This document shows positions 56,563 to 64,000 of a DNA stretch of 64,000 bases, in pieces. The notes under the pieces are model-generated. The model was not told where the DNA came from. It saw only the letters and a list, made by a program, of their open reading frames with translations, and did not search any database. The translations under genes and the position numbers were made by a program. Numbering within the stretch: the stretch's first letter is position 1; every line of letters begins with the position of its first letter. The stretch lies in assembly GCF_022374935.2 (NCBI RefSeq), contig NZ_CP092430.2, positions 124,001 through 188,000 of the forward strand, read 5' to 3'. Source of the stretch: Mycolicibacter virginiensis. Its GTDB lineage: Bacteria; Actinomycetota; Actinomycetes; Mycobacteriales; Mycobacteriaceae.

Positions 56563-56624
56563 GTGACAGCGGCGCGCAGCTGCGGCAACGCCACCGAGTG
56601 ACACAGGTTACACAGGAGAGCTCA

Positions 56625-58445
56625 ATGACCTCAGCGACCATTCCCGGTCTGGACACCGCCCCGACGAAGCATGGCGAGTTGCTGGCCTGGGTTCGGGAGG
56701 TCGCGGAGCTCACCCAGCCCGACCGGGTGGAATGGTCCGACGGTTCCGAGGAGGAGTGGAACCGGCTGATGGCCCTGCTGGTGGAGTCCGGCGCGGCGGT
56801 CAAGCTCGACGAAGAGAAGAAGCCCAACTCCTACCTGGCGCTGTCCGACCCGGCCGACGTCGCGCGGGTCGAGTCGCGCACCTTCATCTGTAGCCGCACC
56901 CAGGAAGGTGCCGGCCCCACCAACAACTGGATGGACCCGGACGAGATGCGGGCCACCATGACGGAGCTGTACCGCGGTTGCATGCGCGGCCGCACCATGT
57001 ACGTCATCCCGTTCTGCATGGGCCCGCTGGGCGCCGACGACCCCAAGCTGGGCGTCGAGATCACCGATTCGCCCTACGTGGTGGCGTCGATGAAGGTGAT
57101 GACCCGGATGGGCACCGCGGCGCTGGAGAAGATCGGCACCGACGGCGCCTACGTCAAGGGCCTGCACTCGGTCGGCGCCCCGCTGGCCGATGGCGAGCAG
57201 GACGTGCCGTGGCCGTGCAACTCCGAGAAGTACATCACCCACTTCCCGGAGACCCGCGAGATCTGGAGCTATGGCTCGGGTTACGGCGGTAACGCGCTGC
57301 TGGGCAAGAAGTGCTACGCGCTGCGGATCGCGTCGGCGATGGCCCACGACGAGGGCTGGCTGGCCGAGCACATGCTGATCCTCAAGCTGATCTCGCCGGA
57401 GAACAAGGCTTACTACGTCGCGGCGGCGTTCCCGTCGGCCTGCGGCAAGACCAACCTGGCGATGATCCAGCCGACCATCCCGGGCTGGCGGGCCGAGACC
57501 CTCGGTGACGACATCGCGTGGATGCGGTTCGGCAAGGACGGCCGGCTTTACGCGGTGAACCCGGAGGCGGGCTTCTTCGGCGTGGCGCCGGGCACCAGCC
57601 GCAGCTCCAACCCGAACGCGATGATCACGCTGGAGCGCGGGAACACCGTCTACACCAACGTCGGCCACACCGACGACAACGATGTGTGGTGGGAGGGCAT
57701 CGACGGGGAAACCCCGGCGCACCTCACCGACTGGAAGGGCAACGACTGGACGCCCGAGTCGGACACCCCTGCCGCGCACCCGAACTCGCGCTACTGCACC
57801 CCGATGTCGCAGTGCCCGATCCTGGCGCCGGAGTGGGACGACCCGCAGGGCGTGCCGATCTCGGCGATCCTGTTCGGCGCCCGTCGCAAGACCACGGTGC
57901 CGCTGGTGAGCCAGGCCCGCGACTGGCAGCACGGCGTTTTCATCGGCGCGACCATGGGCAGCGAGCAGACCGCGGCCGCCGAGGGCAAGGTGGGTGCGGT
58001 GCGCCGCGACCCGATGGCGATGCTGCCGTTCATCGGCTACAACGCCGGGGACTACATGCAGCACTGGATCGACACCGGTAAGCACTCCGACGAGTCGAAG
58101 CTGCCGAAGGTGTTCTTCGTCAACTGGTTCCGTCGTGGCGACGACGGCCGCTTCCTGTGGCCGGGCTTCGGCGAGAACAGCCGCGTGCTGAAGTGGATCG
58201 TCGAGCGGGTCGAGGGTAATGCCGGCGGCCAGGAGACCCCGATCGGCACCGTGCCCAGCGCTGCCGACCTGGACCTGGACGGCCTGAACGTGACCGCCGC
58301 CGACGTGGACCAGGCGTTGATCGTTGACGCCGACGAGTGGCGCGCGGAGCTGCCGCTGATCGAGGAGTGGTTCGAGTTCATCGGCGACAAGCTGCCCACC
58401 GGCCTGCGCGACGAGTTCGAGGCCCTCAAGCAGCGTCTGGGCTAG
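56625..58445 (+). CDS. pckA: Phosphoenolpyruvate carboxykinase, GTP-dependent
   Basis: 606 residues, same length as M. tuberculosis PckA (Rv0211). Converts oxaloacetate and GTP to PEP, CO2 and GDP, the entry to gluconeogenesis when fatty acids or sterols are the carbon source. Visible motifs: [12 protein letters not shown] (P-loop with the reactive Cys), the metal-binding DDIAWM, and the guanine-binding region [21 protein letters not shown] 56625 with CAGGAGAG 5 nt upstream. Strong terminator after the stop. Confidence 0.97.
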
Positions 58446-60127: not shown

Positions 60128-61507
60128 TTAGGAAGCGATGCCCGGCTGACCGGGGGCGCCTTGACTGCCCGCCTGCCCGTGGACGGTGCCCGGTCCGGCG
60201 GCACCGCCGGGGCCACCTGCACCGGCGGTAGACCCGTCGCCGCCATTGCCGCCTGCGCCGCCGTCGCCACCGTCACCGCCGAAGCCGATTCCGTGGCCGC
60301 CGTCGCCGCCATGGCCGCCGGTCCCGCCGGTCCCCCCAACGCCAATGGCATTGCCGCCGTTGCCCGCCGTACCGCCGTTGCCCCCGTCGCTGCCGCTGGT
60401 GCCGACTGTCACCGGGGTGGCACCGCCGCCGGCCCCGCCGTCACCGCCGCGGCCGCCCCGGCTGCCGGTACCGGTGGCCGTGCCGCCGTCACCGCCGTGA
60501 CCGCCCTGCCCGCCTCCGGCCACGTCGCCGCTGCCGCCGATTCGGCCGCCGTCACCGCCGTGGCCCCCGGACCCGCCGGTAGTGCTGTTGCCGGTCGCCG
60601 CCCCGCCGTGGCCTCCGATGCCGCCCGCACCTCCGCCACCGGACAGCTGGCCGCCGTCGCCTCCGCGGCCGCCGTTGCCCCCCGCTCCGGCCGTCCTACC
60701 GTCGCCCACCGCGGCGCCGCCGTTGGCGCCATCCCCACCGGCGCCCCCGCTGCCGTACAGGTAGTTGCTGTCGCCGCCGTTACCACCGTTGCCGGCCGAA
60801 CCGCCATCTTCGGCGCCATCGCCCCCGCGCCCGCCATTGCCTCCGTTGCCCCACACTTCGCCGCCATTACCGCCGCTACCTCCGTCAGCGCCCAACCCAC
60901 CTGCGCCGCCGTCACCGCCATTGCCGAACAGGCCGGCGCTGCCGCCGTTACCAGCAGCGACACCCTCGAGGTCCGACGACCAACCGTTGCCCCCGTCGCC
61001 GAACCACAGGCCGCCGGCGCCACCGTCTGGATGCTCCGCTGTCCCATCGGCACCATTGCAGATCACGCCGCAGCCGCCGTCGGCCAGCGGTGCGAACAGC
61101 GGGTTGACCAGGTTGTCGAACAACTGGCCGGCCGGACTGTCGATCCAGTCCTGCATGGTCTCGTGCAGCCACTCGTAGAGACCGGCTGTACCGGACGCAT
61201 CGGCGGCCAGTGCCAGCACGTCGCTGCCGCTGGGATCTGGGCTCGCCAAGCTCCAGACGGTGGGGTCCAGCCAGGCCAGGCCCGCGGCCGATGCGCCCGT
61301 GTCTTGGTCCGTCACCCCGAGAAGCGGGCTGAGCAGATCGGCGATCCAATCGAACTCGTCCGCGTGTGCGTACGGCGCTAGACCGACCGGGGCCAGGCCG
61401 AAAGCGGCCAGTGCCGTCAGCGCGGGAACGCTCCGTCGTACGCGGCGACCTGGCGCGGCGGGATGCGCCTGGCGATCCTGTGTGGCCTTACTGCGGTGAA
61501 GCGGCAT
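60128..61507 (-). CDS. Secreted PGRS-type glycine-rich protein lacking a PE domain
   Basis: 459 residues. Basic n-region, hydrophobic stretch and Ala-rich cleavage region (about 25-48, APYAHA) form a Sec signal peptide. A unique segment (about 50-145) with Cys-x-x-x-Cys (GGCGVICNGADGT) is followed by about 300 residues of GGxGG / GNGG / GGDGG repeats, the PGRS signature. The ICNGADGT block resembles the GRPLI-type linker between PE and PGRS domains of PE_PGRS proteins. No PE domain is present. Probably exported by Sec to the cell surface. Paralogue of the next gene, transcribed divergently. Confidence 0.87.
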   Translation of the reverse strand: MPLHRSKATQDRQAHPAAPGRRVRRSVPALTALAAFGLAPVGLAPYAHADEFDWIADLLSPLLGVTDQDTGASAAGLAWLDPTVWSLASPDPSGSDVLALAADASGTAGLYEWLHETMQDWIDSPAGQLFDNLVNPLFAPLADGGCGVICNGADGTAEHPDGGAGGLWFGDGGNGWSSDLEGVAAGNGGSAGLFGNGGDGGAGGLGADGGSGGNGGEVWGNGGNGGRGGDGAEDGGSAGNGGNGGDSNYLYGSGGAGGDGANGGAAVGDGRTAGAGGNGGRGGDGGQLSGGGGAGGIGGHGGAATGNSTTGGSGGHGGDGGRIGGSGDVAGGGQGGHGGDGGTATGTGSRGGRGGDGGAGGGATPVTVGTSGSDGGNGGTAGNGGNAIGVGGTGGTGGHGGDGGHGIGFGGDGGDGGAGGNGGDGSTAGAGGPGGAAGPGTVHGQAGSQGAPGQPGIAS

Positions 61508-61786
61508 TGCTGAGCAACCTTCCGGGAGCGCGTAGTGCGAAGCGGACGGTAGGCGCCCGTCCGGGTGGACCTTTCGCGGCAGGTCAGGCCGTAGCCCGAG
61601 GAATGACTTGCAGTCTATGTATCTGAACCAAACCAGCCGATTGGTATGACTTTATAGCAATTGACCGTATGTTCAAGTGGACAACGGTTGGCTCCAACGC
61701 TACTGTCAAGCACCGTAGGGGGACGGGCACAGTTTCTGTTAAGCCCAAACAAAGATTTAGTCAAGTTCAGAAGGGGTGGGCCAACG
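61508..61786. other. Divergent promoter region of two PGRS genes
   Basis: About 280 bases, clearly richer in A/T (especially 61600-61770) than flanking DNA, as expected for promoters serving both PGRS genes. TTGACC at about 61661 and TCAAG words near 61670-61770 are seen, but no convincing operator. No gene recognised. Confidence 0.55.
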
Positions 61787-64000
61787 GTGGCACATATTCG
61801 GCGCGATAGTCAGAACACTCAATCCGCAACGCGGCGGCGCGACCGTGCGATCGGGGCGGCAGCCTCGGTCGGAGCGTTCTTGGCGTTCGGCATGGCGCCG
61901 CTGGCGTCCGCCCCTTCGGCACAGGCCGATGATTTCGGTCTTGACGCGTTCTGGGACATGTTCGGCGTCGGCGACAGCAACACCTCGGGATTCGACCTGT
62001 TTGACGGCTCCGCATGGGGCGTACCGGGCGCGGCCGACGGTGGCCTGTTCGACGCTGACTTTGCCCAGATGTGGCAGGACAGTTTCTATCTCCCGCTGCA
62101 CGCCATGATGCAGGACTGGATCACCAGCGACTTCGGGTCGAGCGTCAACGGTGTGGTCAACCAGCTCTTCGCGCCCTTTACCGACGGCTTCTGCGGGATG
62201 ATCTGCAACGGCGCCGACGGTACCGAGACCAACGTGGACGGGCAGGCCGGTGGGTTGTGGTTCGGCGACGGCGGCAACGGCTGGACCTCGAACCTGGAGG
62301 GCATTGCCGGCGGTAATGGCGGGCACGCCGGCGGTATCGGCAACGGCGGCGATGGCGGCGCGGGCGGCCTGGGCGCCGACGGCGGCAACGGGGGCCACGG
62401 CGGCGAGATGTGGGGCAACGGCGGCGACGGCGGCGCCGGCGGTGACGGCACCGCCACGTTGGACGCGGGTAACGGCGGCAACGGTGGCTCGTCGGGGCAG
62501 GCCCAGGACTTCTTCGGCATGGGCGCGTGGGGTAACGGCGGTAACGGTGGGGTCGGCGGCGCCGGCTGGACCGGTACCAACGGCTCCGCGGGCAGCGGTT
62601 CCGGGGGCGCCGGTGGTGACGGTGTGGCCGGTGGCAACGCCGGCAACGGTGGCGCTGGCGGGGCTGGTTCCTCGTACGTCGGCATCGGCGGCAACGGTGG
62701 TGCGGGCGGAGTCGGTGGCGCCGGCGGCAATGGCGGCAACGGCGCGGCCGGTGATGCTGGCACGTTCGCCAACAACGGTTCTGGAGCGGGCGCTATCGGC
62801 GGCAACGGCGGTAACGGCGCCGTGGGTGGCAAGGGTGGTGCCGGCGGTGCCGCCGGTACCGGTGGATCCGCCAACGGCACGGTCGGTGCGGCCGGCAACG
62901 GTGGCGTCGGTGGTAACGGCGGCCTCGGTGGCGACGGCGGTACCGGTGCCGATGGCCTCGCGGTGAACGGCGTCGGCGCCAACGGTGCGGCCGGTGGCAA
63001 CGGTGGCGCGGGCGGTAACGGTGGTGCCGCGGCTGCCGGTGGTGCAGCAGGTGGAGCCGGGGCCAGCGTGGGCGCTGCCGGTGTCGACGGCGACGGCGGT
63101 AACGGTGGTAACGGCGGCAACGCCTCCGCTGCTACCGGTGGCCAGAACGGTGTGAACGGATCGACCGCGGCTGGCGGCGGCATCCTGGACCCGGCAATCC
63201 CGGCCACCAGCGGTGGTAACGGTGCCGCCGGTGGTAACGGTGGCGCCGGCGGTGCCGGTGGCGGCCAGGCCGGTAACGGCGGCAACGGCGGCAACGGCGG
63301 CGTCGGTTCCGACGGCGGTAACGGCGGCCACGGCAGCGTCGGGGTCCACGAGGACACCGACTCGGTGCACGGCCTCTACCACGCCCCCGGTAACGGTGGC
63401 GCCGGTGGTGCCGGCGGTAACGCCGGTGCGGCGGGTGCGGGCGCGGCCAACGGCAACGACGGCATCATCGGCAACGGTGGTAACGGCGGCAACGGTGGCG
63501 TCGGTGGCGACGTCGCGGACGTGCGGGACTACGCCTCGGTTGAGGGCCCGGGTGGTTCCGGAACCCTGGGACCGCAAGGTCAGGCTGGTGTGGGCGGTAA
63601 CGGTGGTGCCGGTGGGTCCGGCGCAACGGGCGGTAACGGCGGCGCCGGTGGTAACGGTGGTAATGACCTGTACGCCGGTGGCACCCACGGCGGCAACGGC
63701 GGCCAGGGCGGCGCCGGCGGTGAGGGCCTGGCGAATGCCGACGGCACCGGTGGTGTCGGTGGCGACGGCGGTGCCGGCGGTAACGGTGGCGACGGCAGCA
63801 ACATCCGTTGGGGTGACCCGGACTGGAACACCACCTCCGGTGACTCTTCCTCGGGTCCGATCGACGGTGTCCACGGCGGCGTCGGAGGCGACGGTGGCGC
63901 CGGCGGTACTGGTGCCAACACCGGTGGAAACGGTGGCAACGCCGGAAACGGCGGCAACGTCCTCACCCCGGCATTCGGTGACGACGGCCTCAACGGCGGT
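61787..64000 (+). CDS. Secreted PGRS-type glycine-rich protein lacking a PE domain (partial)
   Basis: At least 738 residues; the gene continues beyond the window. GTG 61787 with AAGGGG 10 nt upstream. Signal peptide (about 1-48; basic RRRDR, hydrophobic GAFLAFGMAPLAS, then AQADD), unique region (about 50-145) ending CGMICNGADGT, then more than 580 residues of GGNGG/GGAGG repeats broken by short hydrophilic islands (AQDFFGMGAW, HEDTDSVHGLYHAPG, NDLYAGGTH, IRWGDPDWNTTS). The first 250 residues align with the divergent neighbour almost without gaps. No in-frame stop was found up to the edge. Confidence 0.87.
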   Translation, partial: MAHIRRDSQNTQSATRRRDRAIGAAASVGAFLAFGMAPLASAPSAQADDFGLDAFWDMFGVGDSNTSGFDLFDGSAWGVPGAADGGLFDADFAQMWQDSFYLPLHAMMQDWITSDFGSSVNGVVNQLFAPFTDGFCGMICNGADGTETNVDGQAGGLWFGDGGNGWTSNLEGIAGGNGGHAGGIGNGGDGGAGGLGADGGNGGHGGEMWGNGGDGGAGGDGTATLDAGNGGNGGSSGQAQDFFGMGAWGNGGNGGVGGAGWTGTNGSAGSGSGGAGGDGVAGGNAGNGGAGGAGSSYVGIGGNGGAGGVGGAGGNGGNGAAGDAGTFANNGSGAGAIGGNGGNGAVGGKGGAGGAAGTGGSANGTVGAAGNGGVGGNGGLGGDGGTGADGLAVNGVGANGAAGGNGGAGGNGGAAAAGGAAGGAGASVGAAGVDGDGGNGGNGGNASAATGGQNGVNGSTAAGGGILDPAIPATSGGNGAAGGNGGAGGAGGGQAGNGGNGGNGGVGSDGGNGGHGSVGVHEDTDSVHGLYHAPGNGGAGGAGGNAGAAGAGAANGNDGIIGNGGNGGNGGVGGDVADVRDYASVEGPGGSGTLGPQGQAGVGGNGGAGGSGATGGNGGAGGNGGNDLYAGGTHGGNGGQGGAGGEGLANADGTGGVGGDGGAGGNGGDGSNIRWGDPDWNTTSGDSSSGPIDGVHGGVGGDGGAGGTGANTGGNGGNAGNGGNVLTPAFGDDGLNGG

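Follow-up and report, generated by a model that had tools for sequence, protein, structure and literature searches.

PGRS proteins with a signal peptide in place of the PE domain in Mycolicibacter virginiensis, and a probable origin for PE_PGRS proteins

PE_PGRS proteins, which join a PE domain (PF00934) to PGRS repeats (PF21526), are substrates of ESX-5 and are usually described as restricted to pathogenic mycobacteria (PMC10216338). The PE/PPE/PGRS family has been called exclusive to Mycobacterium (PMC6016250). Two divergent genes at positions 60128–64000 of a 64,000-nucleotide stretch of the Mycolicibacter virginiensis genome (the window; the genome is a single contig of 4,980,142 bases) encode PGRS repeats behind a predicted signal peptide. 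They raise the question of whether PGRS was joined here to a second export signal or is older than its partnership with PE. The answer that we favour, and consider quite probable, is that PGRS surface proteins had a signal peptide as their export signal and were joined to PE later, in the slow growers. A fuller version, which we hold probable with slightly less assurance, would make PGRS an old cell-envelope module of a wider family rather than an invention of type VII secretion, exported by means of a cleavable signal peptide and multiplied to about 40 copies in this genome. PE_PGRS would then have arisen once, in slow growers, when PE took the place of the signal peptide ahead of a two-helix module, which a subset of PE_PGRS would keep as the scar of the fusion.

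Gene 1 (60128–61507 including the stop codon, minus strand, as are its features below) starts with ATG and encodes 459 amino acids. Gene 2 (61787–64000, plus strand, likewise) starts with GTG and is cut by the end of the window; its stop codon lies at genome position 188,123, which gives 778 amino acids. By the open reading frame map, an intergenic region of 279 bp (61508–61786) separates the two. Both proteins score above the curated Pfam cut-off of 27 for PF21526, with 50.8 bits at residues 149–216 of gene 1 and 43.8 bits at residues 139–206 of gene 2, and their PGRS regions extend over residues 149–459 (60131–61063) and from residue 139 onwards (62201–64000), respectively. The linkers, recognized from the translations and a linker count, are CGVICNGADG in gene 1 (residues 146–155, 61043–61072) and CGMICNGADG in gene 2 (residues 136–145, 62192–62221), and occupy the position homologous to the GRPLI linker of PE_PGRS proteins. 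The canonical repeats named by the sequence-only reading of this DNA are thus present in both genes, while the linker is GRPLI-like in position but differs in its letters. Up to E 1, Pfam finds no family besides PF21526 in either protein, and PE is thus absent; NCBIfam gives no match to either. Nor does a PE domain lie upstream in frame. The frame of gene 1 has no start codon upstream of the ATG at 61507, which excludes it, that of gene 2 opens at 61658 and the PE profile finds nothing in the added stretch, and none of the 15 PE matches of the genome lies near either gene.

What stands in place of PE, as the same reading had proposed, is a predicted signal peptide: residues 1–49 of gene 1, cut after AHA (61361–61507), and residues 1–47 of gene 2, cut after AQA (61787–61927). 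The prediction comes from a home-made rule (charged n-region, hydrophobic stretch and AxA site) with start codons picked by the analyst. All 43 family members in the genome pass it, although one paralogue, at 4,777,793, does so only at a wider setting. Among 880 shuffles 41 pass, and among the window's 34 other open reading frames 11 do. In the region of that paralogue (4,777,793–4,778,560 of genome C1), three copies of SSLLRRASLNRRV stand in frame upstream of the signal peptide.

The arrangement is common in this lineage. Searched with the N-terminal part of gene 1, the genome yields 41 matches, and with the PGRS model 42, of which 38 exceed the cut-off; merged and read in frame, they resolve into 43 PGRS loci and one look-alike without PGRS. 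PF21526 is over the cut-off in 38 of the 43 loci and below it in three, while the other two, at 4,706,351 and 4,645,012, have no listed match and are recognizable only by their glycine-rich repeats. Not one of the genome's 15 PE domains coincides with a PGRS match. Together with 46 PPE matches over the cut-off, these counts agree with the pattern reported for Mycolicibacter terrae, which has 42 ppe, 12 pe and no pe_pgrs genes (PMC12209268).

How far the signal-peptide form extends was judged against three sets of genomes besides our own: six that share its architecture (hereafter mid: G030, G147, G338, G387, G281 and G188), ten presumed fast growers, so labelled from size (mostly 5.5–6.8 Mb, one 4.8 Mb), placement in the trees and resemblance to loci of named Mycolicibacterium species, and genomes of other genera. 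A genus scan scoring nine candidates per genome found a match in 222 of 396 genomes, PE_PGRS genomes included; per-genome counts were not drawn from it. Among about 150 matches listed, we read 90 loci (30 loci and 60 stretches) from 22 genomes. Three kinds of N-terminus precede the common linker and PGRS in these loci: a signal peptide with a short region (own and mid genomes), a signal peptide with a long Ser/Pro/Thr/Ala-rich stretch (fast growers), and PE. The PE profile finds no match among 109 N-termini of the signal-peptide type (42 from our own genome, 35 mid, 18 fast and 14 other-genus) but matches 35 of 36 PE_PGRS, a partly circular comparison in that the 36 were labelled by eye and the profile was then built from them. 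One of the 36, L189, is incomplete, with a PE score of only 0.0068. Checked with Pfam, PE was positive in L119 and L121, the two of this set given to it, and in L290 and L291, two named loci from outside the set that the profile had also picked out. The signal-peptide rule, applied to each possible ATG or GTG start preceding the linker, was passed by 64 of the 67 non-own proteins (33/35 mid, 17/18 fast, 14/14 other-genus) and by none of the 36 PE_PGRS.

Outside the genus, 301 genomes of the family yielded 16 PF21526 matches in 13 genomes of seven genera (E 3e-13 to 2e-4). Twelve of the 13 genomes exceed the cut-off; in G442 the match is weak, below the cut-off and without the linker pattern. 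G437, whose frame runs out of the fetched stretch before its start is reached, was left out of all sequence sets. Fourteen proteins, from 11 genomes and five genera, have a recognizable linker, and PE occurs in none of them. A search of the 13 genomes for PE domains found no match at all in four (G396, G403, G425 and G553); the PE model also matches one of 14 control genomes (E. coli), so weak PE matches may be due to chance. Among mid, fast and other-genus genomes there were 14 PE frames longer than 300 codons, and the 13 that were read contain neither the linker nor PGRS repeats (best profile E 0.49), the 301-codon frame on G188 C107 being excluded. Named loci tell a similar story: among the best 80 of 268 confirmed relatives, 78 lack PE, the two with it being from M. 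gordonae DSM 44160 and a metagenome-assembled genome. Sixty-two of these 80 are titled Mycolicibacter, and the others include Mycolicibacterium sphagni, senegalense, setense and rhodesiae, whose loci are PE-free and in three cases show signal-peptide-like starts by eye. We also read a PE-free PGRS gene (L287) from Mycolicibacter engbaekii ATCC 27353, a strain entered with 0 pe_pgrs in Table 1 of PMC12209268; counts of this kind miss PE-free PGRS genes.

The two forms have more in common than repeats. A unique domain of about 95 residues, with a Cys-x3-Cys pair inside it, had been proposed for the region before the repeats. What is conserved there is a two-helix module some 45 residues long, which follows a variable acidic/aromatic stretch. 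The cysteines (C146/C150 in gene 1, C136/C140 in gene 2) lie outside this region, in the linker. The pair is a linker variant, CGxICNG in place of GRPLIGNG, and does not mark a new domain; the variant occurs in 8/42 own, 11/35 mid, 1/18 fast and 3/14 other-genus proteins and in 0/36 PE_PGRS, while a GRxLI-like linker is found in 7 of 42 own proteins versus 33 of 36 PE_PGRS. Before the linker, the general layout is a variable stretch after the signal peptide and then the module, YxPxH...WIxSPxG...VN..IN. In gene 1 the module was placed by motif profile (seeded with own sequences) and predicted helices at residues 104–141 (YEWLH...QDWIDSPAG...LVN; 61085–61198), and in gene 2 by motif profile at residues 101–126 (YLPLH...QDWITSDFG...VVNQ; 62087–62164). 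A homologue search with residues 1–150 of gene 1 had no match at E ≤ 0.001 in a capped set of 7,997 scored candidates dominated by repeats, an outcome that does not speak for absence. The sequence search of the PDB was empty up to E 1, and one 95-residue segment, with the low-complexity filter on, had no match among plasmids and phages.

A profile of the 46 residues preceding the linker, built from 42 own-genome paralogues only and excluding linker and repeats (five proteins were dropped because the linker pattern missed them, and three for want of a profile match), carried the search beyond this genome. At E < 1e-3 it found the module in 27/35 mid, 10/18 fast, 2/14 other-genus and 9/36 PE_PGRS segments. 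The nine PE_PGRS score between 9.5e-7 and 5.7e-14 and all remaining PE_PGRS at 0.1 or above, leaving a gap; 2,900 shuffles gave nothing better than 0.0094. All 80 of the best named loci have the module. Pfam finds both PE and PGRS in four module-bearing PE_PGRS, that of M. gordonae DSM 44160 among them; three of the four end in a histidine phosphatase domain and the fourth ends with its contig. Since the module is common to signal-peptide forms and a subset of PE_PGRS, the fusion joint would lie upstream of it. We also noted a PE protein in G096 (L196) with the two-helix module and a GRDLIG linker in which PGRS is absent and the part after the linker looks histidine-phosphatase-like by eye.

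That the two kinds of protein are unrelated, their glycine-rich repeats having arisen twice, deserves consideration because PGRS repeats are of low complexity and such repeats arise easily; the other-genus PF21526 matches are, moreover, partly weak, given their E-values and the one genome of 13 below the cut-off. However, the module is not repetitive, lies upstream of the linker and was detected in both kinds by a profile made from own-genome sequences only, and its residues Y15, H19, W25, S28, G31 and N39 are invariant across 12 diverse rows. Predicted structures point the same way. The AlphaFold2 model of gene 1 has helices at residues 104–123 and 125–141, followed by PGRS without regular secondary structure, and its predicted local distance difference test scores have block means of 84–97 over residues 111–300, lower elsewhere (mean 70.6). 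An equivalent hairpin (108–138 and 140–157) is predicted at the same position in the M. gordonae PE_PGRS, in a model made from eight input sequences with modest confidence in the helix blocks (52–79) and poor confidence in the PE part (28–59). We therefore rejected convergence, which on account of the shared module seems very improbable.

By E-value, the gene 1 model finds its best fold matches in the antifreeze proteins of springtails and snow fleas, which are polyproline/polyglycine-II bundles (7jjv, E 1.2e-4; 3bog, E 0.26; 2pne, E 0.42). Template modelling scores are low (0.26–0.42 by target) and function and organisms are unrelated, so the likeness is one of shape only. The matches agree with the polyglycine-II model put forward for PGRS (PMC9436101).

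Common descent leaves the direction of change to be settled. Trees of rpoB were made for 29 genomes, rooted on other genera, with G147 omitted as a fragment; the genomes were chosen for having PGRS, so losses go uncounted. In the DNA tree the presumed fast growers split off first. The slow growers all group together (100/99), and among them the six PE_PGRS genomes make up a single clade (100/100) that pairs with our own genome and the mid set (81/93). This clade thus falls inside the signal-peptide genomes, with the other genera outside. The PE_PGRS genomes also hold together in the protein tree (100/98). In both trees signal-peptide PGRS flanks this clade and is therefore the simpler ancestral state. 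PEPCK was tried as a species marker and rejected in favour of rpoB, as our own clade sits on a long branch of doubtful placement. With the PEPCK gene of the window (56598–58445), that clade branches low in the genus, a position that the rpoB DNA tree does not give it.

Trees of the PGRS genes say less. A tree of short PGRS-start sequences held 60 of 145 segments (25/42 own, 14/35 mid, 10/18 fast, 9/36 PE_PGRS, 2/14 other-genus), and in it eight of the nine module-bearing PE_PGRS form a clade (99/98) next to a group of signal-peptide proteins with a GRELIGNG-type linker (95/94). A larger linker tree (115 of 145 rows, 69 columns) had an unsettled bootstrap and was not used for direction; it omits 13 named outliers, every row with fewer than 60 residues past the linker and, apart from a selected set that was returned, half of this genome's rows. 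In approximately unbiased (AU) tests a single PE_PGRS group is not rejected on either tree (p 0.31 for the 60-row and p 0.19 for the 115-row tree). With gene trees this weak and AU tests of this kind, root and direction rest on distribution.

The reverse history, in which PE_PGRS is older and signal-peptide PGRS came from it by loss or replacement of PE, perhaps repeatedly, could draw on the PE_PGRS-like linker of some signal-peptide paralogues (for example INAPF..LFGRDLIGDG) and on the AU tests, which leave a single PE_PGRS group standing. Against it, every fast-grower branch in the rpoB tree bears signal-peptide PGRS, as do no fewer than five other genera, no PE–PGRS fusion was seen outside PE_PGRS genomes among the loci read, and four PGRS-bearing genomes have no PE match. 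We regard that history as unlikely. The sequence-only reading had raised a greater age of PGRS as one alternative; spread favours the signal-peptide form as the older, with the direction being what we infer from it. That PGRS pre-dates PE_PGRS appears well supported by spread and shared module, though short of proof.

Several observations weigh against an origin from signal-peptide PGRS. While the PE_PGRS genomes stay together in the rpoB protein tree, they stand there beside the fast growers (87/96), and the basal position in the genus goes to the clade of the window (89/87). In the PEPCK tree, too, that clade branches low; PE_PGRS and signal-peptide (mid) genomes are intermixed, and three other-genus rows fall within the genus. 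The pairing of PE_PGRS with the GRELIGNG group is not reproduced in the 115-row tree, which has more rows but fewer columns, so the trees of short sequences disagree on the closest signal-peptide relative of PE_PGRS. Eight of the 18 segments from fast growers and 12 of the 14 from other genera are without the module. The genomes in the trees were selected mostly for the presence of PGRS, and only part of the matches were read. Finally, the signal-peptide rule is loose enough to be passed by the 11 window frames mentioned above, and three fast-grower proteins (L126, L136 and L166) pass it only at a start deep in the frame, perhaps spuriously.

From their sequences, these proteins are predicted to leave by the general secretory (Sec) route and to do so without dependence on ESX-5. 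The type VII secretion signal YxxxD/E occurs in 7 of 42 own N-termini versus 35 of 36 PE_PGRS; gene 1 has a single match, YAHAD, which straddles the predicted cleavage site, and gene 2 has none. Export through ESX-5 or by twin-arginine translocation (Tat) in spite of the signal peptide is nevertheless conceivable. The genome encodes ESX-5 (EccC, EccD, EccE and mycosin by NCBIfam; best solved relatives MycP5, E 1.3e-222, and EccD5, E 3.7e-206), so it may have a role in PGRS export; the helix hairpin ahead of the repeats is loosely like that of a type VII substrate, and an RR pair lies close to the hydrophobic stretch in 30 of 43 N-termini. Yet the strict Tat motif, [ST]RRx[FLVIM][LVIMFK], fits only 1 of the 43, YxxxD/E is scarce, relatives are present in the four genomes without any PE match, and fast growers are reported to be without ESX-5 (PMC1660551). 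Either route therefore seems improbable to us.

Under Sec export, the precursor would cross the inner membrane and be cleaved by signal peptidase after AxA. The mature chain, a helix hairpin followed by a flat polyglycine-II PGRS sheet, would then sit at the cell envelope by a hydrophobic edge, a seating modelled on the proposal for PE_PGRS. In the slow-grower lineage, joining PE upstream of the two-helix module would have brought PGRS under ESX-5, and most PE_PGRS would subsequently have lost the module. A surface protease is described as removing PE from PE_PGRS (PMC9436101); if so, both mature forms would be nearly identical, and PE and signal peptide would be interchangeable export tags.

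Compared with PE_PGRS, then, genes 1 and 2 and their paralogues are alike in PGRS repeats, in a linker at the GRPLI position, in the two-helix module of a PE_PGRS subset and, in some members, in C-terminal domains, such as the DUF2599 carried by at least one own paralogue. They differ in having a signal peptide instead of PE, in mostly missing YxxxD/E and in the CGxICNG linker, found in a fifth of own paralogues and in none of the PE_PGRS read. PGRS outside PE_PGRS-bearing pathogens has been reported from M. smegmatis and other Mycolicibacterium, where the N-termini were called questionable, a PE domain was left possible and an ancestral household protein or function was suggested for PGRS (PMC11939664). 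The named Mycolicibacterium loci in our sample, which does not include M. smegmatis, show PE in none. Mycobacteria without PE_PGRS have also been reported (PMC1660551). Neither PGRS proteins with a signal peptide nor the shared module were found described in the open literature searched, subscription papers and preprints lying outside the search. A PE-free PGRS family, large in Mycolicibacter and present in low copy number in fast growers and other genera, uncouples PGRS from ESX-5 and virulence, and offers both ESX-5-free models for PGRS function and a testable account of how PE_PGRS originated.

The own-genome family shows some further variety. Thirteen of the 43 loci lie outside the window in a minus-strand island at 4,587,000–4,708,000 of genome C1, some of them with open frames of 2,000 to 5,110 codons. 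One signal-peptide PGRS paralogue (L073:1165–2706) ends in a (His-Asp)n tail that may bind metal, and the protein with DUF2599 at its C-terminus (L076:999–2375) has a PE_PGRS-like linker, GRDLIGDG. Another protein (L074:1306–3090) joins a signal peptide like that of the PGRS family to a phosphoesterase domain (PF04185) with PGRS absent, and has look-alikes, by eye, in G387, G188 and G147 (L154, L163 and L165). Lastly, roughly the last 50 residues of gene 2 (L081:4950–5124) closely resemble, by eye, those of the distant paralogue at 4,645,012 (PAFGDDGLNGGAG...), which suggests recombination between PGRS genes.

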